NCBI GenBank assembly: GCA_003175985.1
Contig: PSRJ01000351.1
Coordinates: forward strand, 1 to 37,300
Reading direction: 5' to 3'
Source of the DNA: Terriglobia bacterium
GTDB lineage: Bacteria > Acidobacteriota > Terriglobia > Bryobacterales > Bryobacteraceae
DNA: 37,300 nucleotides
In this document: positions 11,421-32,425 of the stretch, in pieces
Position numbering within the stretch: position 1 is the stretch's first letter
Layout: the number at the start of each line of letters is the position of its first letter
Position numbers and translations under genes: made by a program
Notes under the pieces: model-generated
The model's input: the letters and a program-made list of their open reading frames with translations, nothing else
Databases searched by the model: none
What the model was told of the DNA's origin: nothing

Positions 11421-12716
11421 TTACAGCGGGAAGATACCCAGGATAACGGCCACCGCGGTCATCGCCAGCGAAGCGCCCAACAACAAAGGAAACGCAAATT
11501 GCTGATGATCACGGAACTCGATTCCGGCCAGCCCTGCAATCAGAAATGCAGCGGGCGTCAAAGGACTCACCGGGAATCCCGTGGTCATCTGGCCAAGAAC
11601 CGACGCTTGCGCCATCTGTACGGTTGGGATGCCGAAAGTACGTCCCGTTTCCGCCAGCACCGGCAGCACTCCGAAATAGAAAGAGTCGGGGTCGAACACG
11701 AGGCTGAGAGGCATGGATAGCAGCCCCAGCACGAACGGCAGATGCGGCGCCGCGGCCCGCGGCAGAACGGACACAGCCGATTTCGCCATTGCTGCCAGAA
11801 TTCCCGATTCCTTCATGATCCCGGTAAAGGCCCCAGCGGCGAAAAGGATGGCGGCCATCAGCAGAGCCGCCCGGGCGTGCGCGTCAATCCGTTCCCGTTG
11901 CTGACGGATGTCTGAGTAGTTGATCTGCAGCGCCAGCACCACTCCTACCATGAACACCGCGACCGGGTCCAACTTCGCCGCAATCATGGCAGTAATCAGG
12001 ACCAGGGTGAGAGCCAGATTGATCCAAAACCGGTTCGGCCGGCGCAATGCCAGTTGCTCCTTCGTTAGCTCACGCAGGAAGATCTCGCCGGGCCCCTGGC
12101 CCTGGCGGAACCCCAATCGCTTTGCTTCTCTTCTGCCCAGCCACCAGGCGGCGCTAAATACGAATACGAGTCCTGCCAACTGCACCGGTAGCAATGGGTT
12201 GAAAATGGACGCGACCGTGAGGTGCAGTGAGGCCGCCGCACGAATCATCGGCCCGGTCCACGGCAGGAAGTTTACGCCTGCCGCGAGAGAAGCTGCGCAC
12301 GCCAGCACGCGCTTATCCATGCCAAGGCGCTCGTAAAGCGGCAGCATCACCGGCACGGTCACCAGGAAGGTCACGGCGCCGGAGCCATCCAGATGCACCA
12401 GCAAGGCGAGCAGCGCAGTGCCGATCACAATGCGCACCGGGTCGCTGCCGGCGGCTGCGAGGATCCGGTCGATGATCGGATCGAGCATTCCGGCGTCGGT
12501 CATTATGCCGAAATACAGGATGGCAAAAACGAACATCCCGGCCACACCCGCGACACTTTGAATGCCCCGAAGCATGAAGCCTGCCGTTTGAAACCCGAAG
12601 CCCCCCGCCACCGCAGCCGCCACTGGAACTGCAATCAGCGCGCCTAGCGGAGTCATCTTTTTGCCGAGAATAAGCGCGAGCAGTACGGCGATGGTTACGA
12701 ATCCGAGGAGCGCCAC
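11421..12716 (-). CDS. Citrate transporter family (CitMHS-type) permease
   Basis: A 431-residue integral membrane protein with about 12 hydrophobic segments and the CitMHS layout: an N-terminal hairpin ([18 protein letters not shown]), a conserved [17 protein letters not shown] motif near residue 110, [12 protein letters not shown] near 155, a hydrophilic loop at about 215-235, and a second half with FGVLPVL and [14 protein letters not shown]. The family imports citrate or related carboxylates, commonly as a metal complex with protons; the exact substrate is not determinable. It starts 4 nt after the CoA-transferase stop codon, which implies co-transcription and a shared substrate: import followed by CoA activation. 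Confidence 0.87.
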
Positions 12717-12720
12717 GTTT

Positions 12721-13947
12721 CTAGGCTACGGTCCCGGGGGGCACGGAGGATTCGAAAATCGCTCCACTTGAAGCAAGCTCGTCGAGCGTTGGATCGTCCA
12801 GACTGAGCAGCGCCTGCAGCGCGCAGCGGGTATGCTGGCCCAGCAGCGGCGCCGGGGTACGCGTCCGGGCAGGCATCTCCCCAAGCTTCACCGGCGTGCC
12901 GGTTACCCGGTGCGGTCCGGCGACCGGGTGTTCGAGCACCGGGAACATCTCCCGAATGGCACATTGCGGATGCTCCGCAACCTCCTGGAAATTGCGTACC
13001 AGCGAAGCCGGGATGCCGGCCGCCTGGAGTCTTTCGAGCCACGCGCCCGCGGGTCTATGCCGGAAAACCTCCTCCAGCAGCGGTTCTAACACACCTCGAT
13101 TGCGGATGCGCTGCGCGTTGCTGGCGTAATCCGGGTGATCCGATAAATCGGGCCGATCGATCGCCCCACAAAAGGCGGCCCACAGCTTTTCGCTGCCTAC
13201 GGCAATTGCAATCTCGCGGTCGCCGGTGTGAAAGACGCGGTAGGGCACCACGGTCGGGAATGCCGTGCCCATCGGCCGGGGAACGATGCCGGAGCCGAGG
13301 TAGGTCATGTAATTGGAGCTCATGGTAGAAATCATGCTATCGAGCATGGCCACGTCCACGAACTGGCCCCGACCTGTTGTCTCGCGGGCACGGAGCGCCA
13401 GCAGAATCCCGATCACGGCGAACAGACCTGCTGTTACATCCGTCACCCCATAACCACAGCGCACGGATTCGCCCTCGGTGGTCCCGGTGATGCTCAGCAG
13501 CCCGCTCGATGCCTGCACCACCAGGTCCATGGCGGCTTCGTCACGTGACGGGCCGCCCTGTCCATAACCGGAAATCGAGCAGTAAACGAGGCGAGGATTG
13601 CGCCGGCTGACCGCTTCATATCCCAGGCCAAGCCGGTCCATGGCGCCGGGGCGGAAGTTTTCGAGGAGCACGTCCATCCGGTCAATGAGCCGGCCACACA
13701 GATCGAGGCCCTGCGGCTGTTTCAAGTCGATCGAGATGCCCCGCTTGCCCCGGTTCAATCCCAGGAAGACGCTGGCCTCACCGCCCGCGAACGGCGGGCC
13801 CCATCCGCGGCCCATATCGCCCGAGCGCGCCTCGAGCTTATACACCTCGGCTCCATAATCCGCCAGCAGCAGCGTGCAATAAGGACCGGCCAGCGCGTGC
13901 GAGAAGTCCAGCACGCGAATTCCTGCCAAAGCGCTCTGTGGTTCCAT
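12721..13947 (-). CDS. Family III CoA-transferase (CaiB/BaiF type)
   Basis: A 408-residue family III CoA-transferase. Diagnostic segments are the N-terminal [30 protein letters not shown], the [12 protein letters not shown] block, [17 protein letters not shown] and AAMDLVVQA with the probable catalytic Asp at 141. These enzymes move CoA between carboxylic acids in the cytosol, for example between succinyl-CoA and an organic acid. The acceptor is unknown, but the gene is the first of the unit that includes a CitMHS permease, so a di- or tricarboxylate is likely. Start is the ATG at 13947; the upstream AAGAGTGG is only a weak ribosome-binding site. Confidence 0.9.
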
Positions 13948-15812: not shown

Positions 15813-15948
15813 CGCGAATCAAGCGGGCCAGACACGGCGAAGTTCGCGTTCCGCGACGCGTTTCTTCCTGCTCCACTTCATAGACCTCTTCAAGCCGAGC
15901 GCGCGGGCTGATATATGATAGATCGCTGGGCGTCGCTTGAAGACTCCT

Positions 15949-17262
15949 ATGATCGAGCGCAAAGAAGCTGCCGTAGCCGCAAAGGACTCTGTCGCGTGCG
16001 AGCGTCCCACGCGCGTGCGCCGCGTCGTTTTGGGCCTCGCCGTAGCGGCTTACATGATCACGTACATGGATCGCGTGGTGATGTCGGCGGCCGTGCCTTC
16101 CATCCAGAAGGAGTTCGGGTTCTCGCTGATCACCATGGGCTGGATTGTCAGCTCGTTCCGTTGGGCCTACGCCCTGTTCCAAATCCCCGGCGGCTGGTTT
16201 GGCGATCTGGTGGGCCCACGCAGAGCGCTCTCGGCAATCGTCGTCTGGTGGTCGGTCTTCACGTCGATGACAGCGTCCGCCTGGAGCGCTGCTTCCATGG
16301 CAACCATGCGATTCCTTTTCGGAATCGGCGAGGCCGGCGCATTCCCAATTGCGACGCGATCCCTTTCCCGTTGGGTTCTTCCGGCAGAGCGAGGATTCGT
16401 GCAGGGTCTGACGCATGCCGGCTCGCGCCTGGGCGCCGCTTTCACGCCTCCCCTGGTCGTCTTCATCCTGCTGCGTTATGGCTGGCGAGCCCCGTTCTTC
16501 TGTTTCGGAATCCTGGGACTTCTTTGGGCAGCCACCTGGTATTGGTACTACCGCGACAGTCCCGAGCAGCATTCGTCCGTCAATGCCGCCGAGCTCGCCG
16601 TAATCCGAAACTCCCTCGGCGCGCCTGCTTCCGCCAAACGGAGCATCCCCTGGAAGGCGATTCTCTCGTCTCCACAGATCTGGCTGATTTGCGCAATGTA
16701 TTTTTGCTACGCCTACAACATCGACTTTTACCTGTCGTGGTTTCCGAAATACTTGAACGCCTCGCGTGGCATCAGCCTGGAGAAAATGGGATTGTTCGCG
16801 AGCGTTCCGCTGATTGCCGGCACACTGGGCGATCTGTTCGGCGGCTGGATTTCCGACGTGTGGCTGAAACATTCGGGGAACGTCACGCGATCGCGCCGCG
16901 TTGTTGCCATGGCCGGCTTCCTTTTGGCCGCCGTCTGCGTATGGCCCGCCTATAAGATTCCGCATCCCGTAACCAGCGTGCTGTTCTCCGGTCTGGTGAT
17001 GTTCGGATTGGAAACCACGGTCGGGGTTTCCTGGGCGCTCACCATGGATATCGGAGGCGAGTTTGCCGGCTCGGTCTCATCGGTGATGAATACGTTCGGT
17101 AATCTGGGAGGCGCGCTCGCCTCGGCTCTCGCCGCGTACCTAGTGGAGTTTTACGGCTGGTACACACCGTTCCTGGTGATTGGAATCTTATCGGGGCTGG
17201 GAGCGATTCTCTTTTTGAAGATCGACGCGGGAAGACCGATCCGCGGCCTCGCGAAATCGTGA
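15949..17262 (+). CDS. MFS transporter, anion:cation symporter (ACS)-like
   Basis: A 437-residue major-facilitator protein with about 12 transmembrane segments. The ACS-family signature features are AYMITYMDRVVMSAAVP at TM1, GWIVSSFRWAYALFQIPGGWFGDLVGPRRAL (TM2 and the loop 2-3 motif), and FGIGEAGAFP at TM4. Members carry organic anions such as glucarate, galactonate or tartrate with protons. The ATG at 15949 was preferred over the in-frame TTG at 15937. A TATGAT (15914-15919) could be a -10 element. It follows the porin-like/PBP-like pair in the same direction with a 136-nt gap, so it may have its own promoter. It may take up the product of the adjacent carboxylate locus. Confidence 0.88.
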   Translation: MIERKEAAVAAKDSVACERPTRVRRVVLGLAVAAYMITYMDRVVMSAAVPSIQKEFGFSLITMGWIVSSFRWAYALFQIPGGWFGDLVGPRRALSAIVVWWSVFTSMTASAWSAASMATMRFLFGIGEAGAFPIATRSLSRWVLPAERGFVQGLTHAGSRLGAAFTPPLVVFILLRYGWRAPFFCFGILGLLWAATWYWYYRDSPEQHSSVNAAELAVIRNSLGAPASAKRSIPWKAILSSPQIWLICAMYFCYAYNIDFYLSWFPKYLNASRGISLEKMGLFASVPLIAGTLGDLFGGWISDVWLKHSGNVTRSRRVVAMAGFLLAAVCVWPAYKIPHPVTSVLFSGLVMFGLETTVGVSWALTMDIGGEFAGSVSSVMNTFGNLGGALASALAAYLVEFYGWYTPFLVIGILSGLGAILFLKIDAGRPIRGLAKS

Positions 17263-18055: not shown

Positions 18056-19432
18056 TTACTTCACCGGATTCCCCGCAATATACACCGAAGAGATCGAACG
18101 GGTATTCCTGATATCCGCCAGCGGATTCGCATTGAGCACCACCAGATCCGCCCATTTGGCAACCTCTAGCGTGCCCAGATCCTTCGCGCCCAAGAATTCG
18201 GCGGCATCCCGGGTCGCGGAAGTCAGCGCCTGCATTGGGGTCAGCCCGGATTCGACCAGGAGTTCCATCTCCCAGTGTTCGCCGTAACCGGGGAAGCGGC
18301 CCGGAGGACCGGTATCGGTTCCGAATCCGAACTTCACTCCGGCATCGGCCAGCCTCTTGATATTCTTCTTGGCCGTCTCCAGAATTGCGGGGTATTGCTG
18401 GAAATGCGGGTCGCTCGCGATCGTCTTTTGGCGGTCCGGGCTGGCCAGCAGATTCAGCGTGGCCTGCGAGACCCCACGCTTAAAGAACGGATCGCTTGCA
18501 AAAGCCGGCGTGTGCGCGTAGGCAAACATCGAAGCCTCGCGCGACAACGTCGCCGCTACCTGCCATGTGCCCTGCTTCTTCATACCGTCGATCAGCGCCT
18601 GGTCCACCGGCTTGTCACGCACGAGGTGCACCAGTCCGTTGACGCCCTGATCCACCACTCGCTTGGCGTCTTCCAGGTAGAACACGTGCGCCAGCACGCG
18701 CAGATTGCGCTTGTGAGCGGAGTCGATGATGGCCTTGCTCATCGCCGGAGGCATCTTGGGGAACTTGCCGAGCTCATCGTCGAGCCAGAACTTGACGAAG
18801 TCCACCTTTTGCATCGCGAGCTTTTGAACGGCCGGCTCGATTTCTTCTACCTTGGAATAGGAGGGCGTCGTCCCGGCCAGCCCTCCGTACCCGCCCGTGT
18901 ACACGAAGCCGAATCCCGCGGTGTAAACTCGCGCAACCGACGGCCTCCCCGCGCGCTGCTCCGAACGAACCTGGAAGATGAGGTCCTGATCCGTTCCCAT
19001 GCTCAGCACCGTGGTTACGCCGTACAGAGCATAGGTGTGGAGGTTGGCGTCGATATTCTTCCGGGTGAAATTCTTGCCGTCCTGCACCAGGTCGATGGTA
19101 TTGCCCACATGCCCGTGGAGATTGATGATCCCCGGCGTCACAAACTTGCCTGTGAGATCGACGGTTTCGGCTCCGGCGGGAACCTTGAGTTGCGACGTCG
19201 CGCCGACCCAGGAAATCCGTCCGTTATCGATGATCATGGATGAGCCCGCTACGGGAGGGCGGCCGGTGCCATCGATTAAGGTGAAATTTCGCAGCACCTT
19301 CACTTCGGCGTGGAGAGACCCGGCCAGCACCAGGGCGAGTGCGATCAAGGAACTTACCGAGCCGCGACCGTTAGGGAGCGGTTGTGAGAAGCCGCTTTCC
19401 AGCAGGCTCCTACGTCGTCTTCTTGCGAGCAT
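18056..19432 (-). CDS. Exported metal-dependent amidohydrolase
   Basis: A 458-residue amidohydrolase-superfamily protein with a long, Arg-rich leader before the hydrophobic core SSLIALALVLAGSLHA. The HxH metal motif is in GIINLHGHVG, with a possible bridging Lys in VDFVKFW, His in VLAHVFY and in LVHLV, and the terminal Asp in GFGTDTG. Family relatives cleave C-N bonds in imidazolones, dipeptides or cyclic amides; no substrate is evident. The ATG at 19432 has GAGAGGA 9 nt upstream and overlaps the end of the preceding gene by 23 nt. A repeat-like segment (19359-19381) encodes PLPNGRGS in the leader. The stop is 4 nt before the convergent VOC stop region. Confidence 0.88.
   Translation of the reverse strand: MLARRRRRSLLESGFSQPLPNGRGSVSSLIALALVLAGSLHAEVKVLRNFTLIDGTGRPPVAGSSMIIDNGRISWVGATSQLKVPAGAETVDLTGKFVTPGIINLHGHVGNTIDLVQDGKNFTRKNIDANLHTYALYGVTTVLSMGTDQDLIFQVRSEQRAGRPSVARVYTAGFGFVYTGGYGGLAGTTPSYSKVEEIEPAVQKLAMQKVDFVKFWLDDELGKFPKMPPAMSKAIIDSAHKRNLRVLAHVFYLEDAKRVVDQGVNGLVHLVRDKPVDQALIDGMKKQGTWQVAATLSREASMFAYAHTPAFASDPFFKRGVSQATLNLLASPDRQKTIASDPHFQQYPAILETAKKNIKRLADAGVKFGFGTDTGPPGRFPGYGEHWEMELLVESGLTPMQALTSATRDAAEFLGAKDLGTLEVAKWADLVVLNANPLADIRNTRSISSVYIAGNPVK
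19359..19381. repeat. Short GC-rich interspersed-repeat-like element inside a coding sequence
   Basis: The 23-nt stretch (GAGCCGCGACCG followed by TTAGGGAGCGG on the plus strand) has no inverted repeat of its own, but I recognise this type of sequence as a frequent interspersed element in Solibacter-like and other Acidobacteriota genomes; translated copies give PLPNGRGS. Only this one copy is visible in the window. Here it lies in the N-terminal leader of the amidohydrolase, right after the end of the previous gene (19410). The family assignment is from memory. Confidence 0.4.
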
Positions 19433-20087
19433 CTTCAATGATCCTCTCCGCCCTCGATGGATTGAAAACCCCGCAGGAGCAGAACCTCATCAATGTCGCG
19501 GCCGCATCCTTGGGCGTGCGCCGGCCTTCTTTGACGAAATCGATCATTTTCTTCGCGAGCGAGTGACTGATCATTCCGTGCCCGCACATGGTGGAGAGCA
19601 TCAGTACTTGCGAATTGGGAAGCTTTTCGGTGGCCCCTTCAAACCCTAACGAGTACCCAACGCTGTGCCGCGGGATACAAGCGTGGTGGCAGCACTGCTC
19701 CGCCCCATCGATCGAAGTAGAGATATTGACGCTGAGGCCCAGGTCTTCCTCTTTGATTCGCTTGACGAAATCTTCCGCCGCCGGTCGGTTGTCAAATACG
19801 GCGGCGCATGTGGTGGGATGATCCAGCCCATCGATTACGGCCTGGAAATCGAGCGACACGTCGCGGCGCCAATGGTTCAGAGGGTTCAGACTTCGCGATG
19901 GCCGCAGCGCCCCGCCATGACGGGCGTCGCCCAGGTTCACCGGCTTATACTCCACGGCGATTTTTAAGAATTTTCGCAGGCCTTCGAGAGAGCCCTGATC
20001 GTTCTTCCCCTTTGCCGCGATGGCGAACACCACGTAGTCGTCGCGAAAACTCGCGGCATCGCCAAAGCGGTGAAGTGTGTTGGTCAT
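19410..20087 (-). CDS. Cys/His-rich protein coupled to a ferredoxin (unknown function)
   Basis: A 225-residue protein that I do not recognise. It has no signal peptide or membrane segment. Cys and His cluster in the C-terminal half: CCHHAC at 132-137 plus H141, CGHG at 168-171, and CSCG at 203-206, with a lone Cys at 94. The pattern could hold an iron-sulfur cluster, zinc or another cofactor. A helix-rich tail (RAERIIEDARKKTT) ends the protein. Its ATG overlaps the TGA of the upstream ferredoxin gene by 4 nt (20084-20087), so the two are translationally coupled and probably a complex or an electron-transfer pair. The function is left open. Confidence 0.65.
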   Translation of the reverse strand: MTNTLHRFGDAASFRDDYVVFAIAAKGKNDQGSLEGLRKFLKIAVEYKPVNLGDARHGGALRPSRSLNPLNHWRRDVSLDFQAVIDGLDHPTTCAAVFDNRPAAEDFVKRIKEEDLGLSVNISTSIDGAEQCCHHACIPRHSVGYSLGFEGATEKLPNSQVLMLSTMCGHGMISHSLAKKMIDFVKEGRRTPKDAAATLMRFCSCGVFNPSRAERIIEDARKKTT

Positions 20088-20923
20088 GCGCTTACCAAAT
20101 CCTTTTTCGGCTGTTCCACCACTCTCGATACCCGGCCCATGCCCGTGTTCGTCTTAGCGCGCTCCAGCTTGTATCCCAAGCGCTCCAAAATGGGAGCCAC
20201 CACGTGATCCTCTCCGTCCGACTCGCAGCGCACGCCGACGCCGAGCGTCACCACCGTGCGAATGCGTTTCTCCACATCCCACACCAGGCGGATGACCTCC
20301 TCCACACGCTCCACCGGCACCTTGATCTCGACAATGGCCGAGAGCACCTTCTCGCCCAGGATGTCTTCGCGCAGCGTCCCGGTGGATAGATCCGACATCA
20401 ACGAGGTCACCGGATTCTTTTTTTCGAAGGCCACCTTGGCTTGCGCCAGGGCCCAGCACATCTCCTGTATTTCACGGAACCGTACACCCACGCCGGGCCG
20501 GCCGAATTCGATTGTAAAGCCGGCTTCACCCAACTGTACGCGCCCCGTAACGTCGTTGGTTTTCACTTCCTCCGTGCCCCGGCCTTCCACGCCAGTCGAT
20601 TCATGCGGCACACGCGGATCAGAAAATGCGCGGCGAACTACTCGCGGCCACGCCAGCTCGTTGGGTTCAAATGCAGCCGTTGGACAGACGTCCGGCTCCG
20701 GGTCGAACCGAATGCGCGCAAGCGACAGCAGCTTGCGGATCGTCCTGACCATTGTTGGATTGAGATGCTCCTGGCTCAGGCCGTTAAAGCACGAGTAGCA
20801 CTCGACGCACTCGTCGTCGTTGATGGTGGCGCGTTTGAGCGAAGGGTCGATGTAGATCGCGCCCATGGGACAGACGTAAGTGCAATTACCACACGCGACG
20901 CATTTTGAGGAGTTTATTCTCAT
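20084..20923 (-). CDS. Atypical 2[4Fe-4S]-type ferredoxin-like protein with long C-terminal domain
   Basis: A 279-residue cytosolic protein. The N-terminus has a standard [4Fe-4S] motif, Cys 8, 11, 14 and 18 (CVACGNCTYVC). A second set is incomplete: Cys39, 42 and 45 (CVECYSC) lack the close fourth Cys, but CP at 80-81 (DVCPTAAF) may supply it after a 34-residue insertion. The C-terminal part has HESTGVEGRGTEEVKTNDVTGR and a mixed alpha/beta tail. That segment reminds me of 6-hydroxynicotinate reductase-like proteins, a weak memory-based hint. It is the first gene of a coupled pair with the Cys/His-rich protein. No clear ribosome-binding site precedes the ATG. Confidence 0.72.
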   Translation of the reverse strand: MRINSSKCVACGNCTYVCPMGAIYIDPSLKRATINDDECVECYSCFNGLSQEHLNPTMVRTIRKLLSLARIRFDPEPDVCPTAAFEPNELAWPRVVRRAFSDPRVPHESTGVEGRGTEEVKTNDVTGRVQLGEAGFTIEFGRPGVGVRFREIQEMCWALAQAKVAFEKKNPVTSLMSDLSTGTLREDILGEKVLSAIVEIKVPVERVEEVIRLVWDVEKRIRTVVTLGVGVRCESDGEDHVVAPILERLGYKLERAKTNTGMGRVSRVVEQPKKDLVSA

Positions 20924-29094: not shown

Positions 29095-30384
29095 ATGACT
29101 CCTGCAAACAGCGCCTTGGCCGATATCGAAGAGCCAGTTGGCCGGCCTACAATTCCCGATCGCGTCGACCACCTCGGTATCCCGCGCTCGCTGGTGAACG
29201 ATCTCATTCTGCGCTACCTCTGGCTGCACGGCTCGGCGACGCTCTCGGCCTTGAACAGCACGCTGAAGCTTTCGTTTCCTATCCTGGAAACGATCTTTCA
29301 CCAGTTCCGGCAGCAGCAGCTCCTGGAAGTCAAGGGCATGGTCGGTAACGACTACTCGTTCATGCTGACGGCCGCGGGCCGCGCGCTGGCCACGTCGCGG
29401 AACGAAGTCTGTCAATATGTCGGGCCGGCACCGGTCTCGATCCAGGAATACCACCGGGTGGTGCAGTCGCAGGCCGCGCACGTGCAACTGAATCGCGAAA
29501 GCTTGAAGCAGGCTTTCCACGACATCGTCCTTCCCGACAACCTGCTCGATCAACTCGGGCCTTCGTTGATCGGACACCAGTCGCTGTTTCTCTACGGCGG
29601 CACCGGGAACGGCAAAACGAGCATCGCGGAGCGGATCCTGCGCATTTACCAGGACACCGTTCTGGTGCCCTATGCCATCGAAGTGGATGGCCACATCGTC
29701 ACGCTGTTTGACCCCGTGGTGCATCGCGCCGTGCCCGATTCGGATGACCTGCTCGATCCCCGCTGGGTGGTTTGCCAGCGGCCCTGCATCACCGTGGGCG
29801 GCGAGCTTTCCGCCTCGATGCTCGAACTCCAGATGGATGCCGACACCCGGGTGTTCATTTCGCCGTGCCAATTGAAGGCCAACAACGGCATCCTGATCAT
29901 CGACGACTTCGGCCGCCAGATGCTGACACCGCGCGAACTGCTCAACCGCTGGATCGTTCCGCTCGACCGGCGCGTGGATTACCTGACCCTGGCTTCCGGA
30001 ATGAAGTTCCAGGTTCCGTTCGAACTCATGGTGGTGTTTTCGACCAACCTCGACCCCTACGACCTGGCCGACGAAGCCTTTCTGCGGCGCATCCAGACCA
30101 AAGTGCTCGTAGAGAATGTCAGCCCCGAGAACTTCGACGAGATCTTCAACCGCGTGATGCAGAAGAAACAGATACCCATGGAACCCGGAAGCGCCGCGTA
30201 CCTGCGGGAGCGCTGCCTGGCGGCGGGTTCCAAGCATCTACGTGCCTGCTACCCGATGGACATCTATCGCCTGGTGAAGGCAATCAACGAGTACGAGGGC
30301 AGGCCCACGCGGATGAACAAGGCCAACATCGATCGCGCCGTGGCGCTCTACTTCGCGCGCAACGCCAAGCCGATGATGGATTAG
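29095..30384 (+). CDS. AAA ATPase with N-terminal winged-helix-like region
   Basis: A 429-residue cytosolic ATPase. The N-terminal about 110 residues look like a winged helix (HLGIPRSLVNDLILRYLWLHGSATLSALNSTLKLSFPILETIFHQ, then VKGMVGNDYSFMLTAAGRALA). Walker A is GGTGNGKT at 168-175. Walker B is ILIIDDFGR at about 266-274, with D-D in place of the more usual D-E. A sensor-1 Asn is at 318 (VFSTNLDP) and an Arg pair follows (LRRIQTKV). A helical lid region ends the protein (YPMDIYRLVKAINEYEG). I know such proteins as recurrent acidobacterial AAA proteins of unknown role; DNA-linked or chaperone activity is conceivable. It may partner with the small acidic ORF upstream. Confidence 0.82.
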   Translation: MTPANSALADIEEPVGRPTIPDRVDHLGIPRSLVNDLILRYLWLHGSATLSALNSTLKLSFPILETIFHQFRQQQLLEVKGMVGNDYSFMLTAAGRALATSRNEVCQYVGPAPVSIQEYHRVVQSQAAHVQLNRESLKQAFHDIVLPDNLLDQLGPSLIGHQSLFLYGGTGNGKTSIAERILRIYQDTVLVPYAIEVDGHIVTLFDPVVHRAVPDSDDLLDPRWVVCQRPCITVGGELSASMLELQMDADTRVFISPCQLKANNGILIIDDFGRQMLTPRELLNRWIVPLDRRVDYLTLASGMKFQVPFELMVVFSTNLDPYDLADEAFLRRIQTKVLVENVSPENFDEIFNRVMQKKQIPMEPGSAAYLRERCLAAGSKHLRACYPMDIYRLVKAINEYEGRPTRMNKANIDRAVALYFARNAKPMMD

Positions 30385-30394
30385 CCGCCCCCGC

Positions 30395-32425
30395 TCACAT
30401 TAGAATCCCGAACAGGTTCGAGAAATCGTCGGTCCAGGTGCGAAAGCCGGGGCGCGGCTGCAACACCGCCGATTGCTGCCTGAGGTCCGGGTGAGCTGCC
30501 AGCGTGGCGGGATCCATGATCAGGACCCAGGAGCACGCGAAGCACAGAAAGTCTTCCTCGTCGGGATCGAAATGGTAGACCAGCGCGACTTTACCAAAGT
30601 CGGCGGCCGCGTTCGCCATGACGGGTTGCAAATCGAGATAGCGGTTGGAAATGTTCACCGCCACGATTCCGTTCGGCTTGAGGTGGCGGAAGTAGTCGCG
30701 GAAGGCTTCGCGCGTGATGAGATGCACCGGCACCGAATCGCCCGAGAAGGCGTCCATCACCAGGAGATCGAATTGCTGGCCGGCCTCCGATTCGAGCACA
30801 AGGCGTCCATCGCCCATCGCCACTTCGGTGCGCGCCGGTGTGTCGCGCAGATACGAGAACTCGGAGTTCGCTAACTGCAGCACCTGGGGATTGATCTCGT
30901 AAATGCGAATGGTATCGCCGGGATGACCATATGCGGCCAGCGTGCCGCAACCTAACCCGAGAATGCCGATGCGGCGGGGCGCGCCCTCCAAGGCCTTCAT
31001 GGCGCGGCCGATTCCGCTCGCCGGGCAGAAATAGGTGACAGGCATGTGCCGGTAGGGTTCGCGCAGCATCTGCTCGCCGTGATTGATCGTGCCGTGAATC
31101 AGCTTCCGGGTGGCAGTGTCGTCCGTTTTGGGGTCGCCCTCATCTTTCACCCGAAGCTGGCCATAGAAGTTGCGAGCGACGACGCGATAGGGCTGAACGG
31201 CTTCGCGAAGCACCACTCCCAGGGCGAAGAGATAACCGGCCAGCGCCACGGCCAGCGCCGCGCGCGCCACCGGGCGCGAGGCTTTCCACAGCGCCGTTAC
31301 GATGAGCGCCGCGCACAATGCCAGGCCGAGGTGGAACTCGTAATAGCCGCTGAACAGGTAGGGCGCCAGCAGACCGACGAAGATGCCGCCCAGGGCGCCG
31401 CCCAGTGAGATCGAGACGTAAAAAGAGGTCAGGTAGCGGGCCGGCGGCCTGCGCCGCACCAGTTCGCCGTGGCAGACCATGCAGCAGACGAATAGTGAGA
31501 CGGCCAGGAGAGCAATCAAGGGTTTCATGGCCATCACCGGGCGATTGGGCCACAGCCGGTACGCCAGGAAACCCAGGGCGAGCACGGACAGCGGGAGAAA
31601 GACCCAGCGCCGGTAATAGCGCGACGATTCGAAGCACAGAATGAAGGTCAAAAGATAAACGCTGAGCGGCAGGATCCAAAGAAACGGGATGGCGGCGACA
31701 TCCTGCGTCAGATGCGTGGTCACGGCGAGCAGTAAGATCGAGGCGCAAGCGGCGAAGGCGATCCAAAGCAGTCGAAGAGTCCAGCCCGCCGGCGCAGGGG
31801 ATATATCGGGCGTGGGAGTGGCGGCGACTTCCGCACCGCCACCGCGCGTGGAAACCCTCCACGCCGTGAGCCCGCAGAGCGCCGCAAAGACCGCGTAAGC
31901 CACCGACCAGATGCCCGCCTGGGTGCGCGCCGCCAAAGCCGGCTCGACGAGCACGGGGTAACTGAGCAGAGCCAGCATGGAAGCAAAGTTTGAGAGGGCG
32001 AAGAGCCGATAGGGCATTCCGCTTTTGTGAGTGCGCGCATACCATGCCTGCAGGAGTGGGCTCGTGGACGATAGCAGAAAGTACGGCAGGCCGATAGTCA
32101 GCGCGAGCAAGGCGAGGATTCGCCACGCCGGATTCCCCACGGTGGCGGTTCTCCAGGCGGGATTGGGCACAATCGGCAGTGCCAACAGGCTCGCCGCGAG
32201 GACCAGGATATGCACGACAGCCTGCTTGCGTCCCGAAACCTTCTCATGCAGCCAATGCGCATAGGCGTAGCCTAGCAGGAGCACTGATTGAAAGAAGAGC
32301 ATGCATGTGCTCCACACGGCGGATGACCCGCCGAACCAGGGGAGAATGATTTTGGCGATGACCGGTTGTACCTGGAAGAGGAGAAATGCAGAAAGAAATA
32401 TCGTGATCGGGTAGAGAAGTCCCAC
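30395..32425 (-). CDS. Membrane-fused spermidine synthase-like protein
   Basis: A 676-residue fusion. The first about 420 residues have some 12 hydrophobic segments (MFS-like, beginning MGLLYPITIFLSAFLLFQVQPVIAK). A cytosolic aminopropyltransferase-like domain follows: GILGLGCGTLAAYG (SAM-binding loop), IRIYEINPQVL, GDGRLVLE and DLLVMDAFSGDSVPVHLITREAF. Fused MFS/spermidine synthase proteins are widespread in bacteria and their function is unproven. Nothing in the window suggests polyamine synthesis. It follows the VOC gene by 3 nt and so is co-transcribed with it. Confidence 0.9.
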   Translation of the reverse strand: MGLLYPITIFLSAFLLFQVQPVIAKIILPWFGGSSAVWSTCMLFFQSVLLLGYAYAHWLHEKVSGRKQAVVHILVLAASLLALPIVPNPAWRTATVGNPAWRILALLALTIGLPYFLLSSTSPLLQAWYARTHKSGMPYRLFALSNFASMLALLSYPVLVEPALAARTQAGIWSVAYAVFAALCGLTAWRVSTRGGGAEVAATPTPDISPAPAGWTLRLLWIAFAACASILLLAVTTHLTQDVAAIPFLWILPLSVYLLTFILCFESSRYYRRWVFLPLSVLALGFLAYRLWPNRPVMAMKPLIALLAVSLFVCCMVCHGELVRRRPPARYLTSFYVSISLGGALGGIFVGLLAPYLFSGYYEFHLGLALCAALIVTALWKASRPVARAALAVALAGYLFALGVVLREAVQPYRVVARNFYGQLRVKDEGDPKTDDTATRKLIHGTINHGEQMLREPYRHMPVTYFCPASGIGRAMKALEGAPRRIGILGLGCGTLAAYGHPGDTIRIYEINPQVLQLANSEFSYLRDTPARTEVAMGDGRLVLESEAGQQFDLLVMDAFSGDSVPVHLITREAFRDYFRHLKPNGIVAVNISNRYLDLQPVMANAAADFGKVALVYHFDPDEEDFLCFACSWVLIMDPATLAAHPDLRQQSAVLQPRPGFRTWTDDFSNLFGILM

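Follow-up and report, generated by a model that had tools for sequence, protein, structure and literature searches.

The L-aspartate semialdehyde sulfurtransferase MA1821/MA1822 combines a COG1900/DUF39 subunit with a NIL-ferredoxin (PMC12068725, PMC5764234). The gene pair analyzed here, which lies in a stretch of 37,300 nucleotides (the window) of contig PSRJ01000351.1 from a Terriglobia bacterium of the Bryobacteraceae, resembles this enzyme in joining a ferredoxin that bears a small-ligand domain to a partner protein, dependence on cysteine being a feature of the sulfurtransferase partner. It differs in having neither NIL nor DUF39, in the order of its domains (Fer4 comes first, at the N-terminus, with the alpha/beta domain at the C-terminus), and in its genomic neighborhood.

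The ferredoxin-corrinoid pair HgcB/HgcA likewise consists of a dicluster ferredoxin adjoining a dedicated partner, and the HgcB model (NF040864, NCBIfam) matches the present ferredoxin weakly, although its 27.9 bits fall far below the cut-off of 99, and the present partner has no NCBIfam match. Operons of the tungsten aldehyde:ferredoxin oxidoreductase (AOR) provide a further comparison, given that AOR and a MoaD-like gene are found in the same gene run as the most divergent pair, at locus L191. The Pfam domains AFOR_N and AFOR_C are found in the L191 neighbor, however, and in neither protein of the pair, while 11 of 12 tested genomes with the pair are without AOR. The PII and SbtB regulators are the nearest folds of both alpha/beta domains, and a transporter gene is adjacent in both systems, whereas the pair has weak Z scores, no sequence match to these families, predicted Fe-S clusters, and a CxH/CxC site.

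Organization and Distribution of the Gene Pair

The two genes were described in an earlier note on this DNA as joined by an overlap of 4 nt, and both ORFs do indeed share positions 20084-20087 (Table 1); the identical overlap recurs in 46 loci. The genome contains a single copy of the partner. An amidohydrolase gene that is possibly cotranscribed with the partner gene follows, although it is a neighbor in some lineages only; among same-strand downstream neighbors, it represents 15-16 of 50.

Table 1. Positions of the gene pair, its motifs and domains, and two neighboring genes in the window.
Feature	Position	Strand	Basis or remark
MFS organic-anion transporter	15937..17262	plus	TIGR00893-like, below cut-off; orthologue, rearranged here
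Amidohydrolase	18056..19438	minus	Amidohydro_1; overlaps end of partner gene
Partner protein, 225 aa	19410..20087	minus	ORF; ferredoxin-like alpha/beta N-terminal domain and helical CxH...CxC C-terminal module
C-terminal module MCxHG...CxCGxFxPxRA, residues 157-221	19425..19619	minus	Conserved among homologues; also in small stand-alone proteins
CSCG 203-206 (C203, C205), second half of proposed metal site	19470..19481	minus	Invariant, 40 homologues
CGHG 168-171 (C168, H170), first half of proposed metal site	19575..19586	minus	Invariant, 40 homologues
CCHHAC stretch, residues 132-137	19677..19694	minus	Variable as a cluster
Ferredoxin-like alpha/beta domain of partner, residues 16-127	19707..20042	minus	VIA-align, best Z about 7, weak
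Stop/start overlap of ferredoxin and partner genes, 4 nt	20084..20087	minus	ORF coordinates
Ferredoxin-domain protein, 279 aa	20084..20923	minus	ORF; N-terminal 2[4Fe-4S] domain and PII/ACT-like C-terminal domain
PII/ACT-like alpha/beta domain of ferredoxin protein, residues 130-234	20222..20536	minus	VIA-align
GRGTEEVKTND signature, residues 114-124	20552..20584	minus	G114-E119 and K121-N123 invariant, 38 homologues
C80, remote fourth Cys, Pro next	20684..20686	minus	Invariant, 38 homologues
C45-to-C80 stretch, 34 residues, carries insertion	20687..20788	minus	Kept in homologues except divergent L191
Second cluster motif C39xxC42xxC45	20789..20809	minus	Invariant, 38 homologues
First cluster motif C8xxC11xxC14xxxC18	20870..20902	minus	Invariant, 38 homologues; Pro after C18

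When 84,980 species genomes were scanned for the partner, 170 relatives were recovered; the best 80 are 63-84% identical to it and are nearly all labelled Acidobacteria, Bryobacterales, or relatives, with one labelled Acidimicrobiia; the more divergent members belong to other families of the same order and class. The ferredoxin gene is directly upstream of the partner in 145 of the 148 loci with sufficient upstream sequence, which agrees with the proposal that the two are coupled. Of the three exceptions, two (L076 and L081) have a full-length ferredoxin elsewhere in the genome. At the third (L158, in genome G528), the first 21 residues are missing from the partner match, and a full ferredoxin was not found in the genome; this partner is probably decaying.

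The co-occurrence analysis recommended earlier gave the same picture. Among 250 sampled genomes of the order, 101 had both genes and five only one (partner in four, ferredoxin in one), with neither in the other 144, a class which includes four genomes with only a small stand-alone module protein (Fisher p ~5e-64, uncorrected for phylogeny). Four of the five single-gene cases are at contig ends; G528 is the remaining one. The presence of the pair varies among the members of one genus, so that the ferredoxin and its partner appear to have been gained or lost jointly, as a unit. Given its presence in 101 of the 250 genomes, 18 of them from family f89, a marginal accessory role is unlikely there.

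Outside the Acidobacteriota, the searches covered plasmid, phage, and viral collections, together with the best 80 of the 170 relatives from the genome scan. Neither protein has a match in the plasmids or phages, and the partner has none in the viral contigs either, where a single interrupted ferredoxin fragment was found. This shortened relative, on a phage-like contig (L197:5985-6335, IMGVR_UViG_3300009529_000025), retains a single complete Cys motif, with a TAG following CVE and then the segment TGVYGRGTEGMKTND, and is without the region of the second cluster.

The Ferredoxin Protein

The Pfam models Fer4_10, Fer4, and Fer4_7 are above cut-off on the ferredoxin protein at residues 1-46 only. 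The protein has the two CxxCxxC...C(P)-type motifs and eight conserved cysteines of the Fer4-clan 2[4Fe-4S] proteins, with two predicted clusters, and all eight residues (C8, C11, C14, C18, C39, C42, C45, and C80) are invariant in 38 diverse homologues. One complete 4Fe-4S motif, a second one with a displaced fourth cysteine, C80, and a long C-terminal part had been recognized in the earlier note, and each is present, C80 being located 35 residues past C45 and followed by some 200 more.

The description of the protein as an atypical ferredoxin needs correction in one respect: apart from an insertion, the spacing matches that of ordinary dicluster ferredoxins, and so does not imply an atypical cluster. 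In the L191 protein, approximately 29 residues fewer separate the third and fourth cysteines of the second motif, which are 6 apart, in the ordinary form CxxCxxCx5C. On the strength of this comparison, the ferredoxin of the window is best interpreted as an ordinary dicluster protein bearing an insertion of about 29 residues, and an unusual Fe-S cluster formed through a displaced C80 is unneeded. By the rule for dicluster ferredoxins, C80 would presumably ligate the cluster of C8, C11, and C14, and C18 the other.

The dN/dS of the ferredoxin is approximately 0.06-0.07. Beyond the clusters, in the C-terminal part, the strongly conserved GRGTEEVKTND signature forms a loop of low pLDDT at residues 116-123 in the AlphaFold model, and is a candidate loop for the binding of a ligand or of the partner. 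A literature search, which is a weak test, found no paper on the GRGTEE motif.

The Partner Protein

The absence of a nameable family for the partner was confirmed by the profile and sequence searches, in which it matched none of the Pfam or NCBIfam families (E<=1), none of the PHROGs (E<=0.01), and, by sequence, no entry of the PDB. The ferredoxin domain is of a known kind, but the libraries searched have no model for the partner family, for the C-terminal domain, or for the combination. The dN of the partner is 0.10-0.24, with saturated dS.

Most of the metal-type ligands of the partner are conserved, although the three Cys/His clusters proposed earlier give way to one plausible four-ligand site, CxH...CxC: the ligands of CGHG and CSCG are invariant, whereas CCHHAC varies. 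In 40 homologues, the only invariant Cys and His residues are H6, C168, H170, C203, and C205. By contrast, C132 and C133 of CCHHAC are conserved in 70% of the sequences, H134 in 33%, and H135 and C137 in 7%, which rules this stretch out as a third metal cluster.

The final 65 residues of the partner form the module MCxHG-x(32)-CxCGxFxPxRA. In four loci of genus g213 (L154, L155, L157, and L162), small proteins consist of the CxH...CxC module alone, with all four ligands, and the full pair was not found in these genomes. The existence of such proteins points to the module as a self-contained unit for metal binding. Zinc, iron, and an Fe-S cluster are candidates for the site, which could also be a structural zinc site.

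Predicted Structures

The AlphaFold models have a pLDDT of 81 and a pTM of 0.80 for the ferredoxin protein, and 82.6 and 0.83, respectively, for the partner. In VIA-align, PII, SbtB, and ACT proteins are the nearest folds to both alpha/beta domains, all with Z <8. The best match of the ferredoxin protein, to PII, reaches a Z of 7.6, which is weak and accompanied by matches to many families, and the best PII/SbtB values, 7.2-7.6, fall within the range usual for unrelated folds. Absence from the VIA-align list is no indication of a novel fold, and Foldseek matched neither protein at E<=0.001. The ferredoxin-like topology that the models appear to share is common, and such a fold would not by itself set the function.

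Transporters and Other Neighbors

The usual neighbor of the pair is an MFS transporter, which direct mapping located immediately upstream in 47 of 81 loci, within 30 nt in most cases, and anywhere in the examined flanks in 57, leaving 24 without one. These transporters also represent 41 of 61 same-strand upstream neighbors, and are nearest to TIGR00893 (NCBIfam), the D-galactonate/anion group, below the cut-off. The commonest minimal unit is the MFS gene plus the pair, which suits an enzyme acting on an imported compound. In family f89, the pair has a different neighborhood, without the MFS gene. The transporter listed in Table 1 is the best match in the whole genome to the ferredoxin-linked MFS of locus L063 (61%, 579 bits), followed by one at 43% and 373 bits.

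The gene neighbors, which were called by a simple GC-frame script instead of a gene finder, also include GntR/FCD regulators, BKACE, lactonase, FMN_dh, HpcH aldolase, FAD/Fe-S oxidases, and an FAA hydrolase similar, at a score below the cut-off, to 2,4-didehydro-3-deoxy-L-rhamnonate hydrolase. None of the catabolic enzymes is constant, and as a set these neighbors suggest the catabolism of sugar-derived acids. At L191, the gene row is DctQM (a TRAP transporter), AOR, a ThiS/MoaD-like gene (sub-threshold), ferredoxin, partner, and PdxA. This compact run (L191:1-7674) also contains a second ferredoxin-type protein, and is followed by a sigma-54 regulator on the opposite strand. No paper on the AOR/PdxA/TRAP combination emerged from the literature search, again a weak test. 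A general role as an accessory of AOR is ruled out by the absence of AOR from 11 of the 12 pair-bearing genomes tested.

Proposed Function and Alternatives

Genetic coupling, conserved ligands, and linkage to a transporter are all observed features of the pair. As a dedicated ferredoxin is combined here with a four-ligand partner and a carboxylate-type transporter, the unit is best read as uptake plus a first enzymatic step, and since the usual neighbor is a transporter for sugar-like acids, a redox enzyme for such acids is proposed. The pair is thus tentatively regarded, at somewhat less than an even chance, as an uncharacterized two-subunit redox or Fe-S/metal enzyme for a small imported carboxylate. 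The cofactor-bearing oxidoreductase suggested in the earlier note, with predicted catalysis, is a plausible fit to this neighborhood, and neither of the two findings that the note named as contradicting it, a well-known family or unconserved Cys/His residues, was obtained.

Under this proposal, the two proteins would associate in one cytoplasmic enzyme, in which the first subunit would carry two [4Fe-4S] clusters and an alpha/beta domain of the ligand-binding type, while C168, H170, C203, and C205 of the second may form a mononuclear metal or Fe-S site. The substrate, possibly a small hydroxylated or sugar-derived carboxylate, would enter through the MFS transporter linked to the pair, or in some relatives through a TRAP transporter, and undergo an early redox or Fe-S-dependent step, with the two clusters passing electrons between the site of the substrate and the pool of ferredoxin.

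A dicluster ferredoxin might instead belong to an electron-transfer accessory, itself non-catalytic, that serves separate dehydrogenases, such as AOR or FMN and FAD oxidases. This is considered unlikely: AOR is indeed encoded two genes upstream of the pair in L191, FMN_dh is downstream in three neighbors, and a fused FAD/Fe-S oxidase is upstream in some, but none of these oxidoreductases is a regular neighbor (AOR is found in G767 only, among the 12 genomes tested), and a shuttle would require neither so large a conserved C-terminal domain nor the partner. The immediately upstream transporter gene in 47 of 81 loci and the PII/SbtB-type folds as the best resemblance for both alpha/beta domains would also be expected of a redox- and metabolite-sensing regulator of the transporter, similar to PII/GlnK-AmtB or SbtB-SbtA. 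The Z values below 8 refer to a very common fold, however, 24 of the 81 loci have no MFS in the examined flanks, and conservation peaks in the clusters, GRGTEEVKTND, and CxH/CxC, all of which leave regulation a distinctly improbable role.

An even slimmer chance is given to reductive sulfur transfer or cofactor assembly. The L-aspartate semialdehyde sulfurtransferase has a like architecture, in which the ferredoxin bears a small-ligand domain and the other subunit is Cys-dependent (PMC12068725, PMC5764234), but neither NIL nor DUF39 was matched in the pair (Pfam, E<=1), and a transporter with sugar-acid neighbors is not suggestive of sulfur metabolism. The probability left over by these readings and the two-subunit enzyme is reserved for others.

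For the enzyme of imported carboxylates, it is possible, though rather doubtful, that the partner is the first member of a family of catalytic subunits dependent on a metal or Fe-S site. Together with the ferredoxin, it would then constitute an oxidoreductase or lyase, so far undescribed, by which the Acidobacteria of soils act on sugar-derived acids. Acidobacteria abound in soils, and it is mainly known families that have served to assign their carbon metabolism. A redox pair that is conserved, lacks a family model, and is linked to an organic-acid transporter would indicate a step missing from this catabolism, and the defined four-ligand site is a testable feature of the pair.

Other Genes of the Window

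Two further ORFs of the window, at 29095-30384 (429 aa) and 30395-32425 (676 aa), have no Pfam match at E<=1e-5. On the minus strand, at 11421-13947, a CitMHS citrate-type symporter adjoins a family III CoA-transferase, which represents a second organic-acid unit near the pair.
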